Shown here: in pieces, positions 55,201 through 61,200 of the stretch
Layout: every line of letters begins with the position of its first letter
Numbering within the stretch: position 1 is the first letter of the stretch
DNA from: Loripinus fragilis
Taxonomy: Eukaryota > Mollusca > Bivalvia > Lucinida > Lucinidae
Assembly: GCA_964019695.1 (NCBI GenBank)
Contig: OZ026524.1
Coordinates: 67,358,223-67,422,222 of the forward strand
Direction: 5' to 3'
Length of the DNA stretch: 64,000 nucleotides
Position numbers and translations under genes: made by a program
Notes under the pieces: model-generated
What the model was told of the DNA's origin: nothing
The model's input: the letters and a program-made list of their open reading frames with translations, nothing else
The model's database searches: none

Positions 55201-58200
55201 TTACATGTATGATACAACATCCTGGCTTAACTGTATCAAACTTGTATCAAGTTTTATGGACAATTCCATTAGACCAAAAATTGTTTCCGAAAACCCTACT
55301 GACCCTACCTTTTTGCAGCTTACTCTAAAATATTTTTTGATATTCTGAATTATTTTCATGCTTTTCCTACCTGCAGACTTTTAAAAATACTGAGACATTT
55401 CCGGAAAAAAATATCTTAGTCTACAAAGGGTTAAAATTGTTTGATATATTTACAGATGCTGGTAATGGGTAATGAGGACACGCTGGCAGGATTCCCTGTG
55501 AAACAAGTTGTACCGGCCCTCATTACTCTCCTACAGATGGAACATAATTTTGACATGATGAATCACGCCTGTAGAGCCTTGACATATATGATGGAAGCCC
55601 TTCCACGATCTTCGGCCGTTGTTGTTGATGCTGTCCCTGTATTTTTGGAGAAGGTAAGCATAACCCTTATGTAATTCCTGAAGGAATGCTTCGAAAAAAA
55701 AATGAGTTTGAAAACAAAAAATGCAGATAGCAGAAAATTATGTTCAAGGAAACCAAGAAAATATACACAGGTGCGCCACATTAGCAGACATTTTTCTCGA
55801 ACCTGAAACAGGGGGTTAATGAGGTGGAATGCTTATTGTTGTAGTATTTGCTTAAAATAATCCATGAAATTTTGCTCATTTTGTTAAAAAATGATTTTAT
55901 TCACTCTGATATAATAAAATAATTCTAGTGGACCAGTTAACACTTGCAAATTCGGCACAAACTCTTAGGTACGCCAAATTAGCCTACAGCAGGGTATGTA
56001 CTTTAATGTGTAAAATCACTCTTTTTAACCCTGTACTCCATAATAACTCCTTTTGACGACTTTGAAGTATTATGCATTTAAAAGATATAAAGGAAAATGG
56101 AGCATTTACAAATGCTCCATTTTCCATGATATTTTCAAACGTATTCAAATCTCTTGATTTTTCAATGTTGTCTATAAATAGATGATGTCATGATCTAAAA
56201 ATAGCGTATGGAGTAAAGGGTTATCATACGGCATGCACAGCTACCTGTTTTAGACTTGACATGCCATCATTTTCTATTTTTAGACAATGAAAAAAAGAAG
56301 AACAATTTAAGTAAAGTTTTGAATACTTTTGAAAATATTATGGAAAATGGAGTATTTGATTTCAAAGGCGTCAAAAGATGTTTTTATGGAGTAAAGGGTT
56401 AAACTGCACAGATAAGCAGGCTCATTCTAGCATTGACTACTGGCAAATGTGATGAATTCCAAAATCTTATATATGTTTCACAGGTTTAGGTTAATAAAAA
56501 CTTTCAGCTTAAATTGTAAATATTTTCTTACCCATCGATTTTAACATATGTTTTGGGTGCTCAAAAGAACCGTCTCATTGAGACGGTTCTTTTGAGAACC
56601 AATAACATATGTTTTGGTTGAGAAATAAGAAAATTAAATTTTCGTAACACTCTTAACTAAAGTCCTGTGTTTGCTCAAATAGTTATTAATTCTACTGACT
56701 TCCAACAGTGCTTTTTACCCCATTTTGGTATCTTATTTCCAGCTGCAAGTTATCCAGTGTATGGACCTGGCCGAGCAGGCTCTCACAGCTTTAGAAATGC
56801 TGTCAAGAAGACATAGCAAGGCTATCTTACATGCTGTTAATTAACCCCCGTTTTGGTATCTTATTTCCAGCTGCAAGTTATCCAGTGTATGGATGTGGCT
56901 GAACAGGCTCTCACAGCTTTAGAAATGCTGTCAAGAAGACATAGCAAGGCTATCTTACATGCCGTTAATTAACCCCTGTTTTGGTATCTTATTTCCAGCT
57001 GCAAGTTATCCAGTGTATGGATGTGGCTGAACAGGCTCTCACAGCTTTAGAAATGCTGTCAAGAAGACATAGCAAGGCTATCTTACGTGCCGTTAATTAA
57101 CCCCTGTTTTGGTATCTTTATTTCCAGCTGCAAGTTATCCAGTGTATGGACGTGGCTGAACAGGCTCTCACAGCTTTAGAAATGCTGTCAAGAAGAGTTA
57201 GACATAGCAAGGCTATCTTACATGCTGTTAATTAACCCCTGTTTTGGTATCTTATTTCCAGCTGCAAGTTATCCAGTGTATGGACGTAGCTGAACAGGCT
57301 CTCACAGCTTTAGAAATGCTGTCAAGAAGACATAGCAAGGCTATCTTACATGCTGTTAATTAACCCCTGTTATGGTATCTTATTTCAGCTGCAAGTTATC
57401 CAGTGTATGGATGTGGCTGAACAGGCTCTCACAGCTTTAGAAATGCTGTCAAGAAGACATAGCAAGGCTATCTTACATGCTGTTAATTAACCCCTGTTTT
57501 GGTATCTTATTTCCAGCTGCAAGTTATTCAGTGTATGGACGTGGCTGAACAAGCTCTCACAGCTTTAGAAATGCTGTCAAGAAGACATAGCAAGGCTATC
57601 TTACATGCTGTTAATTAACCCCTGTTTTGGTATCTTATTTCCAGCTGCAAGTTATCCAGTGTATGGATGTGGCTGAACAGGCTCTCACAGCTTTAGAAAT
57701 GCTGTCAAGAAGACATAGCAAGGCTATCTTACATGCTGTTAATTAACCCCTGTTTTGGTATCTTATTTCCAGCTGCAAGTTATCCAGTGTATGGATGTGG
57801 CTGAACAGGCTCTCACAGCACTAGAAATGCTGTCAAGAAGACATAGCAAGGCTATCTTACATGCTGTTAATTAACCCCTGTTTTGGTATCTTATTTCCAG
57901 CTGCAAGTTATTCAGTGTATGGATGTGGCTGAACAGGCTCTCACAGCTTTAGAAATGCTGTCAAGAAGACATAGCAAGGCTTTCTTACATGCTGTTAATT
58001 AACCCCTGTTTTGGTATCTTATTTCCAGCTGCAAGTTATCCAGTGTATGGACGTGGCTGAACAGGCGCTGACAGCTTTAGAAATGCTGTCAAAAAGACAT
58101 AGCAAGGCTATCTTACATGCTGTTAATTAACCCCTGTTTTGGTATCTTATTTCCAGCTGCAAGTTATCCAGTGTATGGATGTGGCTGAACAGGCTATCAC

Positions 58201-61200
58201 AGCTTTAGAAATGCTGTCAAGAAGACATAGCAAGGCTATCTTACATGCTGTTAATTAACCCCTGTTTTGGTGTCTTATTTCCAGCTGCAAGTTATCCAGT
58301 GTATGGATGTGGCTGAACAGGCTCTCACAGCTTTAGAAATGCTGTCAAGAAGACATAGCAAGGCTATATTACATGCTGTTAATTAACCCCTGTTTTGGTA
58401 TCTTATTTCCAGCTGCAAGTTATCCAGTGTATGGATGTGGCTGAACAGGCTCTCACAGCTTTAGAAATGCTGTCAAGAAGACATAGCAAGGCTATCTTAC
58501 ATGCTGTTAATTAACCCCTGTTATGGTATCTTATTTCCAGCTGCAAGTTATTCAGTGTATGGATGTGGCTGAACAGGCTCTCACAGCTTTAGAAATGCTG
58601 TCAAGAAGACATAGCAAGGCTATCTTACATGCTGTTAATTAACCCCTGTTATGGTATCTTATTTCCAGCTGCAAATTATCCAGTGTATGGATGTGGCTGA
58701 ACAGGCTCTCACAGCTTTAGAAATGCTGTCAAGAAGACATAGCAAGGCTATCTTACATGCTGTTAATTAACCCCTGTTATGGTATCTTATTTCCAGCTGC
58801 AAGTTATTCAGTGTATGGATGTGGCTGAACAGGCTATCACAGCTTTAGAAATGCTGGCAAGAAGACATAGCAAGGCTATCTTACATGCTGTTAATTAACC
58901 CCTGTTTTGTTGTCTTATTTCCAGCTGCAAGTTATCCAGTGTATGGATGTGGCTGAACAGGCTCTCACAGCTTTAGAAATGCTGTCAAGAAGACATAGCA
59001 AGGCTATCTTACATGCAGTTAATTAACCGCTGTTTTGCAATCTTATTTCCAGCTGCAAGTTATCCAGTGTATGGATGTGGCTGAACAGGCTCTCACAGCT
59101 TTAGAAATGCTGTCAAGAAGACATAGCAAGGCTATCTTACATGCTGTTAATTAACCCCTGTTATGGTATCTTATTTCCAGCTGCAAGTTATTCAGTGTAT
59201 GGATGTGGCTGAACAGGCTCTCACAGCTTTAGAAATGCTGTCAAGAAGACATAGCAAAGCTATCTTACATGCTGTTAATTAACCCCTGTTTTGGTATCTT
59301 ATTTCCAGCTGCAAGTTATCCAGTGTATGGATGTGGCTGAACAGGCTCTCACAGCTTTAGAAATGCTGTCAAGAAGACATAGCAAGGCTATCTTACATCC
59401 TGTTAATTAACCCCTGTTATGGTATCTTATTTCCAGCTGCAAGTTATCCAGTGTATGGATGTGGCTGAACAGGCTCTCACAGCTTTAGAAATGCTGTCAA
59501 GAAGACATAGCAAGGCTATCTTACATGCTGTTAATTAACCCCGGTTTTGGTATCTTATTTCCAGCTGCAAGTTATTCAGTGTATGGATGTGGCTGAACAG
59601 GCTCTCACAGCTTTAGAAATGCTGTCAAGAAGACATAGCAAGGCTATCTTACATGCTGTTAATTAACCCCTGTTTTGGTATCTCATTTCCAGCTGCAAGT
59701 TATTCAGTGTATGGACGTGGCCGAGCAGGCTCTCACAGCTTTAGAAATGCTGTCAAGAAGACATAGCAAGGCTATCTTACATGCTGTAAGTTTCACTAGT
59801 TTTTTACTAGCAAATTTAGTACTTGCTATATATACTCAGAAAAACAATTGAAGGATATTTAGATTCAATTTCATTTCTAACATTCAATACAATAAAAACT
59901 AAACAAAATATATGCACAGTACATATCCAAATGGTGCAACCCTTCATACTGAAAAGTCACAAACGTTCAAAAATGTTTGTTACCCATTTTTATCGTTTGT
60001 ATTCCATAATAACTGGCTCCAAAATCATTGCTGGCTCTCCCTCAAAAGCATAGCGACTAATTTTATAGTTGTTGTCAGGTTTTTACAGCCAATTTCCTGT
60101 CATATTGGCTCATGGTATGCCATATCTGAGCATTTCTGTTGAAGAAGTTGTCCCATTATCAGGGGCAATAACTGATGGGTGTTAACACTTGTCTGTGGTC
60201 GGAATTAGAACATTAGCAATGACCAGGTAAAGGTTGCAGCAAGTGCTAAATTTTTTGCTGGTGAATTTTGGGTTAAGAGGTTAGGTACATTTGGAGTGGT
60301 ACTGTATCGTAACCAATGACCCGTAAATTTCATTTTGCATTTTTCTGACTTCCATAGTGGTAGTTCGATCAGATACAAAACTATCTTGTTTAAAAATACT
60401 TTTTTCAAATGTTATAAAGTCAAAAGAAATATAATATCCTTCAATTGTTTTTCTGAGTATATTATAGTCCGTAGAGTACCTTAACCCATTGTATACTGTT
60501 AAAACATTAATTAGCAAGTTCTTGGGCAAACATGATCCAGTTAATTAGGAAATGAGATGTTACACTTACATGGGTGAAAGTTTTCAGGATTACATACTGT
60601 ATTCCTGAATTCAGGATTTTGAGGCTGACTTTCCACAGAAAGTCAGCTTCAAAATACTGAATGCAGCAAATGATAAGAGCTTCTCTGGTTAATTTACAGT
60701 TCATATTTAGACAATCTTCCATTTAAACTTGAAATTGATATTTTGTAGGCATACAGCAAGTTTTAAGATATGAATTTCGAAAGTTCAAGATTTTGGAAAT
60801 TTCAGACTTTCACCCATGGATGTTGTTACACTTATCATTTTGGAGGCAATTAGTTGAGGTTGTGTAATACATGGCTTTAGATAAGGATGCATTGGTGAAA
60901 GTTTTCAGGATTATTCCTGAATTCAGGATTTTGAAAATGCTGAATTAAGGAGACCATAATAGCTTCTCTGATTTATTTTCAGCCTGTCTAAGAACATTTG
61001 ACCATTTAAACTTGAAATTGTGAATAATTTTTGGGCATGCGGAAAATTTTAAGAATGGAGTTTCGAAAGTTCAGGATTTTGGAAATCTTTAACTTTCACC
61101 CATGAGGATGTGCAATTAAGAATTAATTTTCTTACAGATATAATTGGGACTCAAAAGACTTGTCTCAATGAGAAGGTTCTTATGAACCCCCAAAACAAAT

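Follow-up and report, generated by a model that had tools for sequence, protein, structure and literature searches.

In the lucinid bivalve Loripinus fragilis, one 93-nt coding exon of the ubiquitin-ligase gene TRIP12 is present in 24 head-to-tail copies, and the question raised by this locus is what such an array is and whether the splicing of the gene makes use of it. The stretch of DNA that we analyzed, hereafter "the window", comprises 64,000 nucleotides (assembly GCA_964019695.1, contig OZ026524.1, positions 67,358,223 to 67,422,222 of the forward strand), and coordinates are numbered from its first letter. To judge from the sequence, we are dealing with an exon-anchored minisatellite, probably ignored by splicing, a reading to which we assign a probability of roughly 0.62. 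Tandem modules of an exon without a donor are found at several exons of TRIP12 as well as in another gene, and the complete exon stands at the end where splicing would need it.

The exon before the array (e1, called exon 7 in the original prediction) lies at 55456..55653 on the forward strand, as do all of the exons placed below, and ends in the donor AAG/GTAAGC (the slash marks the exon end). The array follows at 56743-59785, with copies starting at 56743, 56871 and so on to 59693. The claim that 24 copies with open frames occur here held on recounting: the same frame is open in 24/24. Copies 1 to 23 (56743..59692), which we term decoys, each have an acceptor, but GTTAATTAA replaces a good donor. 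Copy 24 (59693..59785) is the complete exon e2, has the donor GCT/GTAAGT, and is presumed to be the working exon; when the exons starting at 55456, 59693, 63115 and 63528 are joined, their product aligns to human TRIP12 over 192/192 residues (9gkm, E 6.3e-99). Copy length is 93 nt in 23 copies and 99 nt in copy 4, which has a 6-nt in-frame insertion. The spacing is 128 bp except at copies 3, 4 and 5 (129, 134 and 127), and Tandem Repeats Finder reports 56723-59787 with a period of 128, 23.9 copies and 96% matches. An AG precedes every copy, within TTATTTCCAG in 21 of them and within variants in copy 6 (TTATTTCAG), copy 4 (CTTTATTTCCAG) and copy 24 (TCATTTCCAG). All 23 upstream copies are closed by NNN/GTTAATTAA, the triplet being GCT in 19, GCC in 2, GCA in 1 and CCT in 1. 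The short linkers and in-frame TAA that had been predicted are likewise present: the 23 linkers measure 35 nt in 21 cases, 36 nt in one and 34 nt in one, and reading through the end of a decoy yields V-N-stop in 23/23. Just upstream of the array, at 56557-56600, is an inverted repeat of GCTCAAAAGAACCGTCTCAT and its complement; the same inverted repeat also lies within a 246-bp x 3.9 tandem array at 42682-43647, and it is probably a short mobile element.

What distinguishes the decoys from copy 24? Weight matrices were built from the gene's own sites (28 acceptors and 25 donors, with boundaries that were partly script-assigned and in some cases doubtful). On this scale the acceptors of the decoys score 9.1-14.6 and that of copy 24 scores 13.4, whereas the donors at the exon boundary score only 1.3-3.0 in the decoys versus 8.2 in copy 24; 21 of the 25 assigned TRIP12 donors score at least 7.1. 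These values agree with the earlier claim of acceptors on every copy and a good donor on the last alone. Because the decoy acceptors score like that of copy 24 and the decoy donors score far lower, it is the donor, and not the acceptor, that tells the decoys from the working exon. Further, the strongest GT anywhere in a decoy unit scores 2.5-4.0, which makes the decoys poor exons.

The original prediction offered two mechanisms, namely a brake on TRIP12 and an array left silent because an exon would be recognized only with the final donor; in light of the donor scores, the second appears to fit better. Under the first, e1 would be spliced to a decoy acceptor, translation would meet the TAA, the message would decay, and a higher copy number would lower TRIP12 output. 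The strength of the decoy acceptors and the V-N-stop that follows every decoy speak for such a brake, but the decoys' weak GT sites would make them poor exons, and the arrays at five further TRIP12 exons described below would stack the losses. We regard the brake as unlikely. Nor do the decoys fit a poison cassette exon, which would have an acceptor, a donor and an in-frame stop; an acceptor and a stop are present in the decoys, and a good donor is absent in 23/23.

How might the array have formed? A short duplication across the acceptor would have brought upstream intron sequence directly behind the exon end; four bases, TGCT, are common to both junction points of this duplication when they are compared by eye. 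An intact acceptor-exon-donor unit would then remain downstream, so that, if exon definition governs the splicing of TRIP12, the copies before this unit would be skipped and the mRNA would be normal. The unit would have increased in number through unequal exchange or slippage, and exchange in which the working exon takes part would have kept the copies alike. The edge copies, 1 and 24, share GCC GAG in place of the GCT GAA seen in the 22 inner ones, a difference that is expected if the growth of the array was internal.

A different kind of answer is that the assembler multiplied a single exon. Tandem arrays are a weak point of assembly, and the e2 copy number of 24 rests on one assembly. However, the copies carry private substitutions and indels, and the edge copies are unlike the inner ones. 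Array units also occur in proteins from other assemblies, which disfavors an artefact of one assembly and largely answers the worry about such an artefact that had been voiced initially. A protein search with one e2 unit returned 57 proteins, and we read 20 of these. P0001 (70 amino acids, found on two contigs) has two exon copies joined in frame through a linker like that of e2. P0003 and P0004 each consist of one unit that ends in V-N, and P0004 also includes a translated flank closely resembling the one upstream of copy 1; P0002 resembles a last copy with a donor. The contigs behind these four proteins all count against the artefact, which we hold to be most improbable. The remaining 16 of the 20 resemble ordinary single exons. 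Tandem copies of the next exon, e3, are found in P0058 and P0064, and P0059 matches the last e3 copy. The nearest named protein match is P0062 from Dreissena polymorpha, with 72% across 62% of the query. Within the L. fragilis genome, all 24 matches in a DNA search with the e2 exon and all 28 matches to a TRIP12 fragment fall at this one locus, and no second TRIP12 locus was found among the best candidates, which alone were scored.

Might the copies be used, whether as mutually exclusive exons or spliced together in series? Frames that are open in 24/24 copies, lengths that are multiples of 3, and the in-frame junction in P0001 favor this possibility. Against it stand the donor scores of the decoys, linkers of only 34-36 nt, and peptides that are nearly identical (15/24 the same as that of copy 24), and we judge it very improbable. 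In Dscam-like clusters of mutually exclusive exons, the copies have diverged and each has both splice sites. The e2 array is like these clusters in having head-to-tail copies of one coding exon within a gene; it is unlike them in that 23/24 copies have GTTAATTAA (1.3-3.0) where a good donor would stand and in that its peptides are near-identical. We therefore do not class it as a mutually exclusive exon cluster, given the want of a good donor in 23/24 copies and the low divergence (96% matches).

Is e2 the only exon so affected? We took 200 kb around the window and traced TRIP12 to its stop codon at 153298-153300; the numbering of exons starts at 55456, a TRIP12 probe was used for the tracing, and weakly conserved exons were possibly missed. 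Twenty-eight exons were traced. Tandem Repeats Finder, reading by eye and self-comparison identified arrays at six of them, four with 12-24 copies and two with tandem pairs. Five of the six combine an acceptor with exon sequence and have no donor: e2 (128 bp x 24, with the whole exon), e3 (136 bp x 2, with most of the exon), e8 (76 bp x 17, with the exon start), e11 (146 bp x 2, with part of the exon) and e18 (97 bp x 12, with the exon start). The sixth, e25 (86 bp x 12), is a mirror image composed of exon end and donor, and some of its copies contain a stop or frameshift. The complete exon comes last in the acceptor-type arrays and first in the donor type.

The duplication of e3 lies inside the window (62966-63232, 136 bp x 2.0, 96%): a partial copy at 62979..63096, having an acceptor and the first 118 nt but no donor and containing an in-frame TGA (EFHYD-stop), precedes the complete e3 at 63115..63276 (donor CAG/GTTAGT), and e4 follows at 63528..63650 (donor TTG/GTAAGT). 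The three further high-copy arrays are past the end of the window at 74640-76048, 116106-117267 and 132834-133870, the last being the mirror-image array, whose copies have donors but lack acceptors. Detached partial copies were seen near e7 and e14. In total, local copies occur at 8/28 exons (e26 excluded), four of which are in arrays of at least 12, and self-comparison revealed none at the other 20/28. The description of the locus as a "conserved single exon" amplified was thus too narrow, since partial local copies occur at eight TRIP12 exons and such arrays are present in other genes as well. The opposite notion, that arrays exist at every exon, is rejected by the 20/28 TRIP12 exons without a local copy and by most surveyed exons being without an array. 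Separately, a short-unit repeat (135364-135706) starts directly at the donor of e26, a HECT-domain exon.

The position of these arrays with respect to exons can be put in numbers. Between 55456 and 153300, a splice site is covered in 4/4 of the arrays that have a period of at least 50 and at least 5 copies; the chance that four randomly placed units of the same lengths would all cover one is 9e-6, or 1.3e-4 if the e2 array is left out. Our main comparison of exons with intron tiles omitted the tiles inside exon-derived arrays. At least 5 local copies were present for 4/28 exons versus 0/194 unique intron tiles (P 2e-4), or versus 2/476 of all intron tiles (P 1e-4); when the tiles of exon-derived arrays are counted as intron, this contrast is not significant (P 0.28). 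Any local copy at all was found for 8/28 exons and for 9/194 tiles without distant copies (P 3e-4). When repeats with distant copies are allowed, the figures are 8/28 and 68/476 (P 0.045), and local duplication as such is then only weakly special to exons. The excess in TRIP12 points to a process of duplication or exchange that favors exon edges. Surviving exon duplications would be expected to carry one splice site, because a duplication lying wholly within an exon, or one that takes in an exon with both of its sites, would change the protein and would usually not persist; this loss does not account for high-copy arrays being at exons as opposed to introns. One guess is breakage at the polypyrimidine tracts beside exons. 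Another is that unequal exchange is favored in exons, as introns differ more between haplotypes.

The variants among the copies were also compared. The e2 copies differ by private changes, with 16 private and 6 shared substitutions. Non-synonymous changes make up only 8/22, against an expected share of 0.71-0.78 (P 3e-5 to 7e-4), and the private substitutions taken alone give 7/16 (P 0.003-0.02). This codon test, in which transitions were weighted 2 for the expectation, covered four arrays (e2, e18, e25 and the 137-bp array of a second gene, the C12 HECT gene described below) and left out e3, e8, e11, the 80-bp array of C12, C14, C5 and C19. Non-synonymous to synonymous counts were 3:8 for e18, 6:5 for e25 and 2:4 for the C12 array; e25 alone has no significant non-synonymous deficit (P 0.13). 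Pooled, the four arrays give 19 non-synonymous to 31 synonymous variants (P 9e-8), divided as 2:14 for shared and 17:17 for private variants (Fisher P 0.013). All of these P values are too small, because variants within a tandem array are not independent. We read the difference as suggesting that shared variants passed via the working exon by exchange and that the non-synonymous ones were purged there.

These observations also bear on the idea that the arrays are kept by selection as helpers, their repeated exon and acceptor sequence gathering splicing factors for the last copy. High-copy arrays lie at exons and in none of the unique intron tiles of TRIP12, the decoy acceptors are undegraded, and non-synonymous variants, private ones included, are fewer than expected, all of which would suit a helper. 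The 20/28 TRIP12 exons that have no local copy, along with the stops and frameshifts in the e25 array, would not, and this explanation strikes us as quite unlikely.

Are such arrays confined to TRIP12? Whole-genome profile searches were made for HECT, UCH and myosin head domains, and repeated matches were picked by eye; these surveys overlook short units, as the second C12 array and the 12 copies of e25 are not visible in them as runs. The HECT survey yielded 132 matches (best 129 of 161 scored) and, besides TRIP12, a run of 10 (C12) and a pair (C5). The C12 HECT gene, which resembles NEDD4/ITCH/WWP, has a first array of 137 bp x 10, composed of an acceptor and the exon minus its last bases with the final copy complete, and a second array of 80 bp x 7.2, also of the acceptor type with the complete exon last. 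Stretches of HECT genes on C3 (10 kb) and C10 (17.1 kb) contain no array with a period of at least 50. Nineteen HECT matches of equal score (E 3.5e-7, profile 232-305, 88-residue frames) are spread over many chromosomes and probably represent a mobile element holding a piece of the HECT domain.

The UCH survey gave 116 matches (116/116 scored) with one run of 6, located in a USP gene (C14:45831156-45831845; 116 bp x 6). Its unit is a 93-nt exon-like stretch plus a 23-nt linker, and each copy is preceded by AG and followed by GTAAGT; because both splice sites are present, this array is a different sub-type. Three equal UCH matches on C16, near 24296140, 24660922 and 24707786, are in 2242-residue open frames and may belong to a mobile element that carries a UCH-like domain. 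The myosin head survey listed 74 matches (best 65 of 266 scored), among them one clear pair, C19. Overlaps of about 11-23 profile positions between several adjacent myosin head matches are, in our reading, edge effects. The C5 pair (292 bp x 1.9) and the C19 pair are of the donor type. By eye, nine arrays (e2, e3, e8, e11, e18, e25, both C12 arrays and C14) include about 10-36 nt of intron per unit; the C5 unit includes more. Most exons in the three surveys have no array, with the proviso that short units are overlooked, and TRIP12 looks like an outlier among the surveyed genes. A broader reading is possible but tentative: this may be a lineage in which a genome-wide process multiplies exon-plus-splice-site modules, each with a few tens of intron bases, beside their own working exon. 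The modules would reach 6-24 copies via exchange with the working exon, and some genes would gain splicing decoys of variable copy number.

Several observations weigh against an exon-anchored minisatellite that splicing ignores. The acceptors of the decoys match the working acceptor in strength and are transcribed before it, so that some use of the decoys is conceivable. Private variants, too, show a non-synonymous deficit (17/34, P 0.002), which counts against neutrality because a purely neutral decoy does not predict it; some of these variants may be of older date and survive in a single copy only, or a weak constraint may act on the copies. The missing donor is not general, since every C14 unit has both AG and GTAAGT. 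The exon bias was measured mainly in TRIP12, a gene picked because of one array, and the model does not explain why high-copy arrays favor exons over introns.

How does the array compare with known systems? With minisatellites the arrays share units of 76-146 bp that are 91-98% alike and present in up to 24 copies, and e2, with 128 bp, 23.9 copies and 96%, has the dimensions of such a unit. They are unlike minisatellites in that the unit is an exon with its own splice signal, located at exon edges. In the potato RdRp gene, a tandem duplication across an intron-exon boundary is described as having yielded a new intron (PMC4974935). As in that account, the piece duplicated here spans a boundary with acceptor, polypyrimidine tract and exon sequence, each unit being one splice site plus flanking exon; unlike the single duplication described there, the copies number as many as 24, the decoys have no good donor, and several exons are affected (PMC4974935). 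With regard to a new intron, the sites within the duplicated e2 region reach, in terms of scores only, 1.3-3.0 at the boundary and 2.5-4.0 at the best GT, versus 8.2 in copy 24. The LRR genes of Tetrahymena are described as containing arrays of 90-bp exons, for which growth by unequal crossing over was proposed, and phase 2 introns whose length is regular, at about 257 bp in group III of T. thermophila (PMC6564038). Near-identical short exons in tandem are common to both cases; in contrast to the Tetrahymena arrays as described, the TRIP12 units lack one splice site and have linkers of 34-36 nt (PMC6564038). These linkers, together with the want of a good donor, argue against splicing of the TRIP12 array in the Tetrahymena manner. 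Word searches of the open-access literature, in which absence is weak evidence, returned no described case of long runs of donor-less exon copies. We have filed the arrays as a variant of tandem duplication at intron-exon boundaries. If they are silent, they would be natural tests of exon definition, with 23 near-equal acceptors before a conserved ubiquitin ligase exon and the donor alone differing. If they are not, copy number would tune the output of the genes that bear them.

Elsewhere in the window, the open frames at 24069-25969 and 29406-29993 look like pieces of a reverse-transcriptase element.

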